The notes below the pieces were generated by a model that searched no databases, had not been told where the DNA came from, and saw only the letters and a list, made by a program, of their open reading frames with translations. Below are positions 7,108 to 23,548 of a stretch of 23,548 bases of DNA, one piece after another. The stretch's first letter is position 1. Each line of letters begins with the position of its first letter. Made by a program: the position numbers and the translations under genes. Source of the stretch: a virus; the IMG/VR virus record IMGVR_UViG_3300043772_002267, positions 1-23,548 of that record; one strand, written 5' to 3'.

Positions 7108-7239
7108 TTAATAGAAAGCGGCTTTGCGCCGAAAGGACTGAGGTTCGTCCTGTGTGTCGGATTCTAGTCTCAAGAACCCACCTTGTCGAAATCTGGTGAT
7201 AGCCATCACGGCCGTGTCAGCCAAGTCGTCGTGGCTCAT
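7108..7239 (-). pseudogene. Stranded second copy of the terL 3' end (43 codons)
   Basis: The minus-strand frame MSHDDLADTAVM...RRKAAFY repeats the last 42 residues of the large terminase (7893-8018) with 38 of 42 residues identical, including the HDDLAD motif that supplies the third metal-binding Asp of the terminase nuclease. At DNA level I count about 43 differences in 126 bases, nearly all synonymous, so the two copies diverged long ago under protein-level selection. The remnant has an ATG overlapping the HNH stop (ATGA), so a 43-residue peptide could be made by coupling. It sits nine bases before the portal start, the likely original terL-portal spacing, so it is probably the resident tail left behind when the cassette at 7236-8018 arrived. 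Confidence 0.85.
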
Positions 7240-7853
7240 TTTTCTTCTTGCCCGCTGAGCCAGCAAAAAACAGCATAAATTTCAGCTCTGTTTGCGTTCG
7301 ACTTTATGGTGTTTGCCTTAAAGCTGATTACAGCAACATTGCCCTGAACATAGCCAAGCGACGGGTTAATTCTGTCAAGGCTGGCGCTGTTTGGCACTTG
7401 TCTTGTTGTTCCACCATAACTCAAATCAACACCAAACACAGGGCACACATCCAAAGCTAGGGCGTAAACGTAGTCGTTGGTTAGATCGAAATCAAGTCCC
7501 TTGTACTTCGCCCTTGTCCTTGCGCCACCTACGGCACTTACAACCCACGCCCATTTTGGATTGCGCTGCTTCCATTTGTCTTTTGCCGACTTTGCTTTCT
7601 CGCTGGAGTTCCAGTTTGTGTTTTTCCGAAGGACAACGCCGGGACTTCTTTCTTTTCCGGGCCTGTAGTCAGAAGAGCATTGCATACACTTTCCGCTTGA
7701 AGTTGTGCGGTATGAGTTGTGACCATGTTTACATGGCTTCGTCAAATAAATTGAATTCCCCAACTGTCGCGCCTCCTCCCTTGATTTTGGAAGGGAGGCA
7801 ACAAATTCTGCATCCTGCATTTTTTCGGCTATTCGTCTTGGTCCAGATTGCAT
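7236..7853 (-). CDS. Free-standing His-Me finger (HNH / endonuclease VII-type) homing endonuclease
   Basis: A 205-residue protein. Residues 41-59 form a zinc motif C41-x3-H45-x10-C56-x2-C59 inside KPCKHGHNSYR...GKCMQC. Residues of about 135-185 carry the nuclease signature CPVFGVDL...SASLDRINPSLGYVQGNVAVI with Asp160, Asn172 and a terminal AN-x2-K, typical of phage recombination-endonuclease VII-like HNH proteins. The start ATG at 7853 follows AAAAGGAG at six bases. It lies between two copies of the terL C-terminus and overlaps the remnant start by four bases, the arrangement expected of an intronless homing endonuclease that targets the conserved 3' end of terL. Its zinc module is shared with the endonuclease at 20719-21366. 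Confidence 0.85.
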   Translation of the reverse strand: MQSGPRRIAEKMQDAEFVASLPKSREEARQLGNSIYLTKPCKHGHNSYRTTSSGKCMQCSSDYRPGKERSPGVVLRKNTNWNSSEKAKSAKDKWKQRNPKWAWVVSAVGGARTRAKYKGLDFDLTNDYVYALALDVCPVFGVDLSYGGTTRQVPNSASLDRINPSLGYVQGNVAVISFKANTIKSNANRAEIYAVFCWLSGQEEK

Positions 7854-20036: not shown

Positions 20037-20722
20037 CCAAAGACGAAGCTCTCGACTTGGCGCTGGAGGCGTTGGAAAGCGTATTGGCAAACCATAACGG
20101 AGCGCCTGTTCTGCCTTGGATTGAAGCAAGAGATGCCATCAAGCAAGCCCGTGCCCTCGACAAGAAGGCAGAGAACACAATGATCTACAGAACCTTTGAG
20201 CAATGGAAGAGTGGCAATGTGCTGGAGCATGGCGTTCCCCGCACCGAGCATTACAGCGAAGACCAACTCGATCTGGTGGAGATGGGCTGGAACTATGGCT
20301 ACGATGCTGGCCGCGCAGTGGAGCAAGCCCTTGACAAGAAGGCAGAGAACGCCAGAGAGTTGGGGCTGGACTATGAGCCTGCTGAATGGCTGACCGGATG
20401 TCCTGAGTGCGGAATGGACAGCGGCTGTGATTGCGACAGCGGCACATGGAACCCACCCGCAGCACCTGTGCAAAAGCCTGTGTGGATTCGACCCGATGAA
20501 TTGCAGAAGGCCCAAAAAGCACCGTTCTTGTGCCGAGTAGAGCCGCATAAGCGTGACGATTTTGTTCCTCTCTACACCACCCCACCCGCAGCACAGCGGC
20601 AATGGGTTGGGCTGACGGATGAGGAGATTGAAAAAGCCTGTGTTCCGCTTGGTGCGGCAATGCTGTCTTTTACAGAAGTCGCCCGAGCCATCGAAGCCAA
20701 GCTGCGCGAGAAAAATACATGA
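20033..20722 (+). CDS. Mosaic early phage protein with an internal repeat and Cys cluster
   Basis: A 229-residue protein with a modular make-up. Module 1 (1-48) is MTKDEALDLALEALESVLAN...ALDKKAEN. Module 2 (49-106) contains YSEDQLDLVEMGWNYGYDAG and again ends ALDKKAEN. A Cys-rich linker follows (C123, C126, C132, C134), then PVWIRPDELQKAQKAPFLCR (149-168), then VPLYTTPPAAQ and a last module WVGLTDEEIEKACV...ARAIEAKLREKN. Each piece is familiar as a separate short phage protein or ending, so the gene looks assembled by recombination at the repeated DKKAEN and PPAAQ seams. ATG has AAGGAG five bases upstream; the stop overlaps the HNH start. Function unknown. Confidence 0.7.
   Translation: MTKDEALDLALEALESVLANHNGAPVLPWIEARDAIKQARALDKKAENTMIYRTFEQWKSGNVLEHGVPRTEHYSEDQLDLVEMGWNYGYDAGRAVEQALDKKAENARELGLDYEPAEWLTGCPECGMDSGCDCDSGTWNPPAAPVQKPVWIRPDELQKAQKAPFLCRVEPHKRDDFVPLYTTPPAAQRQWVGLTDEEIEKACVPLGAAMLSFTEVARAIEAKLREKNT
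20153..20176 (+). repeat. Internal direct repeat in the mosaic gene (partner 20327-20350)
   Basis: The 24 bases encoding ALDKKAEN recur at 20327-20350 with very few changes (GACAAGAAGGCAGAGAAC is identical in both). It marks the end of each of the first two modules and is a plausible recombination seam. Confidence 0.7.
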
Positions 20723-21366
20723 TTGCAACAACAAGAAAAGACGCCCTTGCTTCTGGGGTTGTTCGTTACTTTACTGGCAAGCCTTGCAAAAACGGTCACA
20801 TTGACGAAAGAACAGCGATCAAAGGTATGTGCTGCCAGTGCCAAAGAGAAACAGCCGCATTGCGCTGGCGTTCTGGTTTAAGCTGGGTTCAACAAGACAA
20901 GTCGAGAGCAACAGAGGCTGTTCGTAAATGGACTGCAAACCATGCGGCACAGAAGTCCAAGAAAAATCAAGACTGGCGCAAAAGCAATCGCTCGGAAGTT
21001 AATGCTCATGCCGCAAAAAGAAGGGCCGCCAAAATTCAGCGAACTCCGCTGTGGGCAGACAAGGAGCAGATCGGTATGTGGTACAGCGTGGCTGAAGTTT
21101 TGAGTCGTGGCGGAGTTGAGTTTCACGTTGACCATATTGTCCCATTGCAAGGGAAAGAGGTGTGCGGCTTTCATTCGCACGACAATTTACAAGTGCTTCC
21201 ATGGTTTGAAAACCTGCGTAAAAGCGCCAAACTCAAGGAGAAGAACGCCGCAGCACAGCCAGCCGTGCCCGATGCCATACACCACACCGACCTGAGTGAG
21301 CATCCCCAGTACATCGAAGGCTGGAACGATTGCAGGGCAGAGATGTTGAAAGGAATGAAGCCATGA
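20719..21366 (+). CDS. HNH endonuclease fused to the tail of another phage protein
   Basis: A 215-residue protein. Residues 1-50 carry the zinc motif C23-x3-H27-x10-C38-x2-C41 in YFTGKPCKNGHIDER...CCQC. Residues of about 50-110 are basic helices for DNA contact. Residues 133-170 are an HNH domain (VEFHVDHIVPL with Asp138-His139, then GFHSHDNLQVLPWFENLRKS with Asn156 and Asn165). The last 37 residues (AQPAVPDAIHHTDLSEHPQY, IEGWNDCRAEMLKGMKP) are not nuclease-like and match the common end of early phage proteins that follow a PPAAQ linker. A homing endonuclease seems to have landed in a resident gene and kept its reading frame. Start overlaps the upstream stop (ATGA). Confidence 0.85.
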   Translation: MIATTRKDALASGVVRYFTGKPCKNGHIDERTAIKGMCCQCQRETAALRWRSGLSWVQQDKSRATEAVRKWTANHAAQKSKKNQDWRKSNRSEVNAHAAKRRAAKIQRTPLWADKEQIGMWYSVAEVLSRGGVEFHVDHIVPLQGKEVCGFHSHDNLQVLPWFENLRKSAKLKEKNAAAQPAVPDAIHHTDLSEHPQYIEGWNDCRAEMLKGMKP

Positions 21367-21909: not shown

Positions 21910-22136
21910 GATACGAACAAGCCAAGCCTCTGGTCGAGACGCTGATGAACTTGGCCGTCCTGTACCACGGCGCACCATCCATGCTCAGGCACAAGCTGTA
22001 CGAAGCGCTGGATGAGTACCTGCCCGACTTGGATGAGGGATGCCGTGAGCGCGGCTGCATCGCGGTCGATCACCTCAAGGACAACCTTGACAACATGAGC
22101 AGCGCCAACAAGCGCCCACTCAAGGAGTACCCATGA
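21906..22136 (+). CDS. Small helical hypothetical protein
   Basis: A 76-residue protein (MRYEQAKPLVETLMNLAVLY, then LRHKLYEALDEYLPDLDEGC). Two Cys residues in GCRERGC. It overlaps both neighbours by four bases. No known motif. Confidence 0.6.
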   Translation: MRYEQAKPLVETLMNLAVLYHGAPSMLRHKLYEALDEYLPDLDEGCRERGCIAVDHLKDNLDNMSSANKRPLKEYP

Positions 22137-22776: not shown

Positions 22777-23004
22777 ATGAGCGACAACCTCGGAACCATG
22801 TTCAATCCCAAAACCCAAGCTCTTCACTCGCGCACCGAAGAAGTCCGCGCAAAAAAAGCATGGACCGGAAAAGCTAAAACTTGCTGGCAATGTCAAAAAG
22901 ACAAGTCACCTGTTGGTGGTCATATAAAAGCCTTGCCGGGTTTCTTTAAGTTCGTATGTAAAGATTGCTGCGAAACGAATGCAAAGAAGAGGCTGGAGGA
23001 CTGA
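22777..23004 (+). CDS. Zinc-ribbon early phage protein
   Basis: A 75-residue protein (MSDNLGTMFNPKTQALHSRT, then TCWQCQKDKSPVGGHIKALP and FKFVCKDCCETNAKK). CWQC and CKDCC form a two-part zinc ribbon. ATG at 22777 has GGAGG six bases upstream and comes two bases after the previous stop. The N-terminal MFNPKTxALHSRTEEVRxKKAWTG is a family signature I recall from several betaproteobacterial phages. Last gene before the terminator. It may bind nucleic acid or a polymerase subunit. Confidence 0.65.
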   Translation: MSDNLGTMFNPKTQALHSRTEEVRAKKAWTGKAKTCWQCQKDKSPVGGHIKALPGFFKFVCKDCCETNAKKRLED

Positions 23005-23020
23005 GCCGCTACGCTCCGAG

Positions 23021-23046
23021 AAGCCCGCCACAGTGCGGGTTTTTTT
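23021..23046 (+). terminator. Rho-independent terminator of the 19.5-23 kb operon
   Basis: CCCGC (23024-23028) pairs with GCGGG (23035-23039), extended by flanking AAG/TTT pairing, followed by seven T residues. It ends the rightward early operon 20 bases after its last stop. Confidence 0.85.
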
Positions 23047-23548
23047 ACGCCCAAAAAATGGACGCGCCATAGGTCGAGCCGCCACCAGATGACCCCGTGT
23101 TCTCTACACAGGAACCTAGTAGCTCTCCACCGCGAAGCTGCTGCCTCGGGCCAAGTTCGGTTCGGTGGCAATAGTCCGCCACGTTCAGCCGTATGCTCTT
23201 TCCATCTGGGTAGTGTTTTTAAGGTACACCCCGGCTCCTCAGCCTTACCCCTCACGTCTTACGTGCTTGACCCAGTTTCCTCACCGCCTCGCATAATTTG
23301 CGGCATCCCCCCGGCTCGACTAAAAGGGGGCCAGCTCACGATAACTGGTTCGGTGTTCCCTTCCGCGCCACCCATGCAGGTGCTTGCTATCGTGCGGAGT
23401 ACGGAAGTCGAGGAACTGCTTAAAGATGGTGGCCGGGGCTGAGAATCCCGGCATCCCCCGCTTCGGAAAACAGGGGTCAACTACTAGAACACCGGGATGC
23501 CGTTAAGGGTCTTGCCAACGCAGAGCGCCGAACATCCGAGTGTCTTTT
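23047..23548. ncRNA. About 500 bases without a convincing gene, rich in hairpins: candidate structured RNA
   Basis: All three minus-strand frames are closed by stops in 23215-23290, and the longest plus frame (23089-23442) has no ribosome site and is strongly Pro/Ser-rich. The stretch holds many perfect short stems. Examples are GTGGC/GCCAC (23165-23169/23178-23182), CACGT-CTT-ACGTG (23253-23265), CGCA-TAATT-TGCG (23290-23302), CCCCC/GGGGG (23308-23312/23326-23330), CCAG/CTGG (23331-23334/23345-23348), GCCGGG/CCCGGC (23432-23437/23447-23452) and the longer-range CGGCATCCC/GGGATGCCG (23450-23502). A large ornate phage RNA (GOLLD- or ROOL-type are known examples) is one reading. An alternative is the 3' end of a convergent late gene: the minus frame from 23216 to 23045 ends GGGSTYGASIFWA. 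The right part is cut by the window. Confidence 0.35.

Follow-up and report, generated by a model that had tools for sequence, protein, structure and literature searches.

The minus strand at the right-hand end of a viral DNA of 23,548 nucleotides (the whole stretch analysed, called the window below) almost certainly carries a conserved structured RNA. This element, named RNA2, is a structured non-coding RNA of about 337 nt located at 23068..23404, identified from its homologues, from a model match and from covariation, with putative transcript ends. To judge by the alignments, RNA2 is a member of a real, conserved, phage-borne family of structured RNAs, new to Rfam. An earlier note on the same DNA had considered an origin, a packaging region and a large structured phage RNA as readings of the terminal bases. 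The last of these is supported by compensatory changes in relatives, pseudoknots included, and is now narrowed by the strand and the extent (about 23068-23404), which are new, the remaining window end being a truncated hairpin module. Overall, the best explanation is probably that of a minus-strand non-coding RNA of about 337 nt acting as a folded RNA in the window phage.

The end of the window

The window is a virus record of the linear class in IMG/VR and includes genes for terminase, portal, capsid, helicase and primase. On the plus strand, the early operon ends with an intrinsic terminator recognized by its sequence (CCCGC-CACAGT-GCGGG, T7; 23024..23046), which stands tail to tail with RNA2 and outside it, and which precedes the RNA2 region in relatives too; the terminator scan did not report it. 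Three frames are open at the window end, of 117 aa (plus, 23089-23442), 73 aa (minus, 23259-23480) and 111 aa (minus, 22920-23255), and none of them matches Pfam at E<=1. Of 91 homologous elements in relatives, none has more than half of its length covered by a composition-scored gene, the calls being those of a crude home-made caller. Thus, the earlier statement that no real gene follows the early-operon terminator is upheld, and the one-frame gene without covariation that would have contradicted a structured region is not seen in relatives, which display compensatory pairing instead.

The earlier note had also described perfect short stems as unusually frequent, and this does not survive comparison with shuffles. 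Indeed, perfect stems within 80 nt number 15 versus 9.8 for 6 bp (P 0.14) and 5 versus 2.5 for 7 bp (P 0.17), and the short-stem count is equalled or exceeded in 12 of 92 windows taken along the contig. Long-range complementary pairs do exceed expectation, with 23 versus 8.5 for 7 bp (P 0.002) and 7 versus 2.2 for 8 bp (P 0.024). The folding energy of the 502 bases is ordinary (z 0.03 on the plus strand, -1.27 on the minus strand), as is that of RNA2 alone (z -1.15), single-sequence folding of the 502 bases on the minus strand and of RNA2 alone being no better than that of shuffles. Taken alone, the stem statistics and the folding energy of the window end prove nothing; the proof of structure lies in covariation among relatives, not in stem density.

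The motif CGGCATCCCC occurs at 23301 and 23449, and GGGATGCCG at 23494-23502 and also at 22037. The first coordinate given earlier for the recurring motif was thus right, and the second, 23450, was one base off. The pairing proposed for the second copy is found as a hairpin of CGGCAUCCC (23494-23502) with GGGAUGCCG (23449-23457). As far as seen, the recurrence of CGGCATCCCC is no functional repeat, because the first copy (23301-23310) lies in RNA2 helices and the second in this separate upstream hairpin. The latter (23449..23502, minus) belongs to a module located upstream of RNA2 and running off the window end, and long-stem modules resembling it precede RNA2 in relatives.

Architecture of RNA2

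The putative 5' end of RNA2 is placed at 23404 (CCGUACUCC) and its 3' box CUAUG at 23072-23068. The 5'-domain model matches 23350-23404 on the minus strand with 69.2 bits (E 1e-19), the window being a seed of that model. In the 5' domain (23359..23404), a helix 23401-23403 x 23391-23393 is accompanied by a crossing helix 23395-23398 x 23362-23365 and by an inner hairpin 23379-23382 x 23369-23372 with the loop UGCAUG, all three predicted from covariation in 27 sequences, so that the domain has the form of a small pseudoknot.

The body begins with a predicted hairpin of CCCCC (23326-23330) with GGGGG (23307-23311), in which all cells of the subclass alignment are paired and two pairs show two-sided changes. 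The loop of this hairpin, GUCGAGCCG (23312-23320), would form a long-range pseudoknot of nine pairs with the 3' strand CGGCUCGAC (23073-23081); all cells are paired in the alignment of classes D and E described below, four pairs show two-sided changes, and the class E counterparts of this pairing are AGGAAGCCG/CGGCUUCCU or AGAGAGCCG/CGGCUCUCU. Then follows the P3 hairpin (23300-23305 x 23282-23287), with all cells paired and two-sided changes in four pairs. Its loop UAUGC (23291-23295) would pair with GCAUA (23192-23196) in a second pseudoknot, again with all cells paired and two pairs changing on both sides; the topology of this P3-loop pseudoknot is significant in the common class under the tree-based null. 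The P4 domain (23206..23275) is closed by CUGGGU (23270-23275) with ACCCAG (23206-23211) and encloses two hairpins (23233-23244, and 23226-23230 x 23212-23216), these helices corresponding to helices 5-8 of the D/E alignment. At the opposite end, a weak hairpin, AUGG-CGCGU-CCAU followed by six U (23053..23070), is a guess as the RNA2 3' end drawn from sequence only, and it is absent from the terminator scan. The promoter and terminator scan of the minus strand over 22900-23548 found none, and that of L105, the nearest relative, gave no minus-strand promoter.

Distribution among viral genomes

At least 80 related contigs were retrieved by a terminase search. When 34 records, 32 of them obtained via the terminase and two via a small early protein, were searched at the DNA level, the same terminator was found, and parts of the region behind it are present in some of those records. 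On the minus strand, the relatives share a common element in which a short 5' domain leads into a variable body, the 3' end standing just before the early-operon terminator. A 5'-domain model (R1), built from 38 sequences including the window, detects 11 of 35 relative records at E below 1e-6 and three further ones at E 0.003-0.05, many records being short fragments; it misses G014, which carries the other hairpin type. Searches by DNA pattern yielded 20 viral stretches with the window-type 5' domain, at least 120 with the other type and 113 with the common-class 3' end, these sets partly overlapping. Four DNA patterns brought together 221 viral loci, one locus from a final subclass scan included, and 197 of these match RNA2 5'-domain or body profiles, profile seeds included. 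The final scan for homologues of the window subclass returned 16 stretches, of which 11 were known, four were unrelated by eye and one was new (L363, where CUAUUG replaces CUAUG). Across the family, the size of RNA2 ranges from about 240 to 340 nt.

By blastn, the only named phage records carrying RNA2 are MW202484.1 and MW202674.1, two uncultured genomes from one spring, the match in MW202674.1 being 63% covered at 69.9%; the window's own region gives only short matches against named phage records. Hypothetical proteins are annotated over the RNA2 match in both records, and one of them, UOF77725.1 (MW202484.1 33533-33892, L254:8080-8439), is probably a false gene. In bacterial genome contigs, the 18-mer CGTCAGGGCGCGTTAGCT has two exact matches, with the rest of the RNA absent and no model match at either locus, which shows absence from these contigs for a 5'-domain type other than the window's. 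A plasmid search gave no match to the window region. Unusual arrangements were observed as well. Tandem 5' domains about 70 nt apart occur at L159:2105-2229 and in L167, only two of the 197 loci having a second 5'-domain match, and a minimal copy at L227:3401-3465 lacks the body, its 5' domain being nearly fused to the 3' end ATCCACCCTTGGGGAACCTATG.

Covariation in the common class and in the window's subclass

Covariation was assessed with a home-made tree-based null in which the tree and the number of changes in each column are preserved (40 replicates), like R-scape in spirit but not R-scape itself. For the common class, alignment A2 retained 47 of 125 element records, 67 passing the motif filters and 48 falling below 95% identity, with L151 left out as truncated. 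In the MAFFT alignment of these copies, pairability exceeds 85% for 34 of the 90 highest-ranking covarying column pairs, versus 9% overall. The proposed structure has 37 pairs in eight helices, three of them pseudoknot helices that would join the P3 loop to the segment after P4, the P4-loop GGUGR to the 3' YCACC, and the P4-loop CAAG to the 3' CUUG. It pairs 98.0% of 1733 cells, with two-sided changes in 28 of 37 pairs and 378 two-sided cells versus 110.5 in shuffles and 39-61 in slid versions, the latter pairing 27-46% of cells with two-sided changes in 10-16 pairs. Under the tree-based null, 13 of 30,135 column pairs reach E<0.05 and 12 of them fall within the proposed structure, including three in the P3-loop pseudoknot. 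The remaining one (176, 182), a G-C/C-G pair, had been omitted from that structure. None of the pairs of the GGUGR/YCACC and CAAG/CUUG helices is significant individually, and their basis is one and two two-sided pairs, respectively. At columns 28-41 of the common class, GU pairing is found in 38 of 43 cells.

The 5' domains were aligned separately. Of the 41 located, 38 form alignment A3, with L142, L152 and L138 excluded for their other inner hairpin, and 27 of these rows form A4, from which common-type rows, L292 and L313 are excluded. In these 27 window-type domains, window included, 99.7% of cells are paired and 8 of 11 pairs show two-sided changes. Under the tree-based null, 6 of the 11 pairs are significant, and six of the eight significant column pairs lie in the structure and two outside. 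The window, one of the 27 rows, has the covarying crossing helices of the family's 5' domain, and it also possesses the P3-loop pseudoknot and the long-range pairing from a loop to the 3' end.

The body of RNA2 in the window belongs to class D (six sequences), which is homologous to class E (seven sequences). In the alignment of these 13 sequences (A1), 97.1% of 518 cells are paired and 21 of 45 pairs show two-sided changes, and the two-sided cells number 102, compared with 37.8 for shuffles and 6-15 for slid versions. The slid versions pair 37-49% of cells with two-sided changes in 2-5 pairs, and this control favours the D/E structure because the structure was read from that same alignment. 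Under the tree-based null, one of the 45 pairs is significant alone (119-124, in a local hairpin), and it is the single significant pair, within the structure; the sample consists of two clades with an effective number of 7.4 and few independent events. The measure of further pair types showed no excess over shuffles in A1 (182 of 500). The D/E 3' box is not an independent observation, because class D/E ends were trimmed at ATG. Altogether, covariation in these alignments supports the predicted RNA2 fold. The wiring of the 3' end differs by class, the partner loop lying in P4 in the common class and in an early hairpin in the window class. One copy, L138, bears a class D body on the other type of 5' domain, and 5' domains and bodies are therefore exchanged by recombination.

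Comparison with known RNA families

In Rfam 15, the window has no match at gathering score, GOLLD and ROOL included, and a search of 22980-23548 at E<=10 gives nothing except NEAT1_1 (E 4). The earlier note had suggested GOLLD and ROOL as models to check, and neither matches the window or the relatives, of which 30 loci were searched at E<=1 and L141 at E<=10. Group I and II introns and known ribozymes are likewise without match in the window and in the relative loci searched. Besides NEAT1_1 and one match to anti-hemB described below, the sub-threshold matches are, at L113/L164, AaHKsRNA82 (E 0.12) and Trp_leader (E 0.22), then sca_ncR21 (E 0.89), MIR1861 (E 0.29) and five further ones in L141 (E 0.5-8). 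Those to NEAT1_1 and AaHKsRNA82 are regarded as chance matches caused by a GC hairpin and its U-run. No tRNA is found in the window, and tRNA genes occur in three of 45 loci scanned.

GOLLD and ROOL form homo-oligomeric RNA cages. GOLLD is a large pseudoknotted RNA of phages and prophages with a conserved 3' region and a variable other end, many copies exceeding 800 nt, ROOL is an RNA of phages and prophages with several pseudoknots, and both are usually found near tRNA islands (PMC12286853). RNA2 resembles GOLLD as a large pseudoknotted phage RNA with one conserved and one variable end, but it is only about 240-340 nt long and its common part is the 5' domain rather than the 3' region. It shares with ROOL its phage origin and several pseudoknots, whereas it has half the length of ROOL or less and tRNA islands are not nearby as a rule. 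RNA2 thus belongs among the large structured phage RNAs and is neither GOLLD nor ROOL by the Rfam test. The put element of HK022 is described as about 70 nt with two stem-loops, located upstream of the terminators that are suppressed and requiring no phage protein (PMC9378689). RNA2 is also a phage RNA element near early-operon terminators, but it is 3-5 times longer and pseudoknotted, and in many loci its place is immediately after a terminator; it reaches about 337 nt with pseudoknots, and 62 of 115 elements follow a T-run with hairpin arm. Neither GGGCGCGUUAGC nor GGGCGCGTTAGC matched any paper in the literature searched, and a description elsewhere is possible.

Genomic context

Upstream of RNA2, 78 of 115 relatives have a run of at least five T at a distance of no more than about 80 nt, and a matching hairpin arm accompanies 62 of these 78 T-runs versus 49 of 409 control T-runs. 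By eye, this hairpin appears to terminate a small RNA whose sequence is itself conserved and often starts with CCGTTGNCG, and RNA2 therefore seems to be reached by read-through. A loose promoter pattern is found upstream of RNA2 in 47 of 115 relatives, a figure that has no control and hence is not counted as evidence. Further observations concern this upstream region. In many loci, a conserved small RNA, the second one beside RNA2, stands just before it and consists of a CCGUUGNCG hairpin and a long terminator hairpin, for instance GCCGUUUAC..GUAAACGGCUUUUUU (L141:150-385, L206:7560-7750, L139, L137); the window ends short of this small RNA. An extra long-stem hairpin module of varying sequence, such as GTTTAAAGATGATG..CATCATCTTTAAAC, stands between the small-RNA terminator and RNA2 in some phages (L106, L108, L269, L271, L349), and a cut copy of it is present at 23410-23548 of the window. 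About 310 nt upstream of RNA2, L137:1750-1820 (minus) gives a sub-threshold Rfam match to anti-hemB (29.6 bits for a cut-off of 49.5, E 0.0061).

Downstream of RNA2, 91 relatives show a same-strand scored gene in 76 cases, a convergent gene in five and none on the locus in 10. Four of the five convergent relatives (L119, L124, L128, L138) are of the window's class. In the window and in G032, G031, G003, G024/G009 and G014, only the early-operon terminator follows RNA2, while G008/G004 have a minus-strand gene between the two. The downstream genes vary and include a YbcO nuclease gene, a replication-initiation gene, very long ORFs and a recurring gene of 280-281 aa, read as a capsid gene, which is separated from RNA2 by a promoter resembling TTGACA/TATAAT (by eye).

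Start codons at the end of RNA2

In 76 common-class 3' ends located via the 5' domain, the terminal codon is ATG in 57, GTG in 10 and neither in nine. Among copies followed by a same-strand gene, 61 of 67 carry AUG or GUG at this point, versus 2 of 11 among those facing a convergent gene (Fisher P 1.3e-6, uncorrected for kinship); without L127 and L236, which are likely false anchors, the counts become 61 of 66 and 2 of 10. The YbcO nuclease gene starts exactly at the RNA2 3' codon in four loci, with a Pfam match from residue 2 or 10, and two of these (L140, L203) have no Shine-Dalgarno recognisable by eye. In other loci, it is the replication-initiation gene that starts at this codon. The idea that the codon marks a short coding gene was discarded, since 33 of 67 frames have at most six codons and 13 at least 72, and 9 of 76 ends lack ATG or GTG.

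Translational riboswitches and viral IRES elements have pseudoknots closing right before a start codon. The leader-type copies of RNA2 share this arrangement, but RNA2 has no ligand-associated gene class and most convergent copies keep the fold and lose the start codon. Thus, RNA2 touches translation in some phages, yet the fold survives without it. A more specific proposal, in which RNA2 would be a phage translation-start element of IRES-like type whose last helix sets the start codon a few bases further on and which recruits ribosomes with little or no help from a Shine-Dalgarno, is rather doubtful, and the AUG kept in five convergent class D copies speaks against the start-codon reading. 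If it were true, RNA2 of the window lineage would be a ribosome-binding RNA without message, and the tie between fold and start codon, if causal, would be new for bacteria.

Possible roles of RNA2

In the window phage, an independent function of RNA2 is slightly favoured over that of a leader. RNA2 would be transcribed leftwards from beyond the window end, as suggested by the small RNA and terminator found just upstream in relatives, and the transcript would end at or near the U-run 23053-23058, against the early-operon terminator. Since RNA2 has no gene behind it either in the window or in several near relatives, it is taken as acting in its own right there, and during infection this folded RNA could act in trans or within an RNA-protein or RNA-only particle.

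A cis-acting leader of the next operon (riboswitch-like, attenuation or antitermination), of which the window copy would be displaced or decaying, is a possible but not a probable alternative. The same-strand gene downstream in 76 of 91 relatives fits a leader better, as do the frequent terminator-like T-runs upstream (78 of 115, with a hairpin arm at 62 of 78 versus 49 of 409 controls) and the start-codon contrast (61 of 67 versus 2 of 11). However, a leader role can hardly explain RNA2 in the window and several near relatives (G032, G031, G003, G024/G009, G014), where the fold is kept despite no gene before the terminator, and it is further weakened by the diversity of downstream genes and by the promoter seen by eye ahead of the 280-281-aa gene. 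Compact nested pseudoknots, sharply conserved ends and the position of RNA2 between terminator and start codon in many loci would also suit a self-processing RNA, ribozyme- or intron-like, cleaving or splicing at its ends. Such an RNA is nevertheless improbable, given that no Rfam ribozyme or intron family matches and that no empty site with precise insertion was noticed in an unsystematic search.

The non-coding operon boundary and the swapped 5' domains on like bodies (L138 versus the window), which imply recombination here, could be expected of a DNA element such as an origin, a packaging site or a recombination site. This is very unlikely, because the conserved pairs include G-U and therefore point to an RNA of one strand, and the genome position varies among relatives; the origin and packaging readings of the earlier note are not supported, on the same grounds, conservation tracking RNA pairing. 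As for a protein-coding gene hidden in the 117-aa plus frame or the 111-aa minus frame, both are open in the window, but the absence of a family match, the lack of a scored gene over more than half of any of the 91 elements, and the compensatory pairing and many length changes found in relatives rather than a kept frame leave it next to no credit.

Antisense pairing with 16S rRNA was considered and rejected. Ten nt of the common 5' domain are complementary to E. coli 16S 860-869 (P 0.0375) and nine nt of the window type to 887-895 (P 0.13), both complementarities falling within 60 nt in 0 of 400 null cases; the 5' domains fetched by the 3' motif alter these strands with compensation, hence the rejection.

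Large ornate phage RNAs such as GOLLD and ROOL, abundant and elaborate, are a puzzle to which RNA2 would add a further, unrelated family. Its assets are a well-resolved fold, a size of 240-340 nt easy to handle in vitro and to solve, and hundreds of natural variants, while natural contrasts (leader versus tail-to-tail type, two swapped 5' domains) make its function testable.

Elsewhere in the window, the terminase has its C-terminal peptide repeated on the far side of an ORF of 205 aa (7108-7266 and 7236-7853, minus), which resembles by eye an endonuclease VII-like ORF at 20719-21366. This arrangement has the look of a homing endonuclease that inserted itself and thereby duplicated the tail of the terminase.
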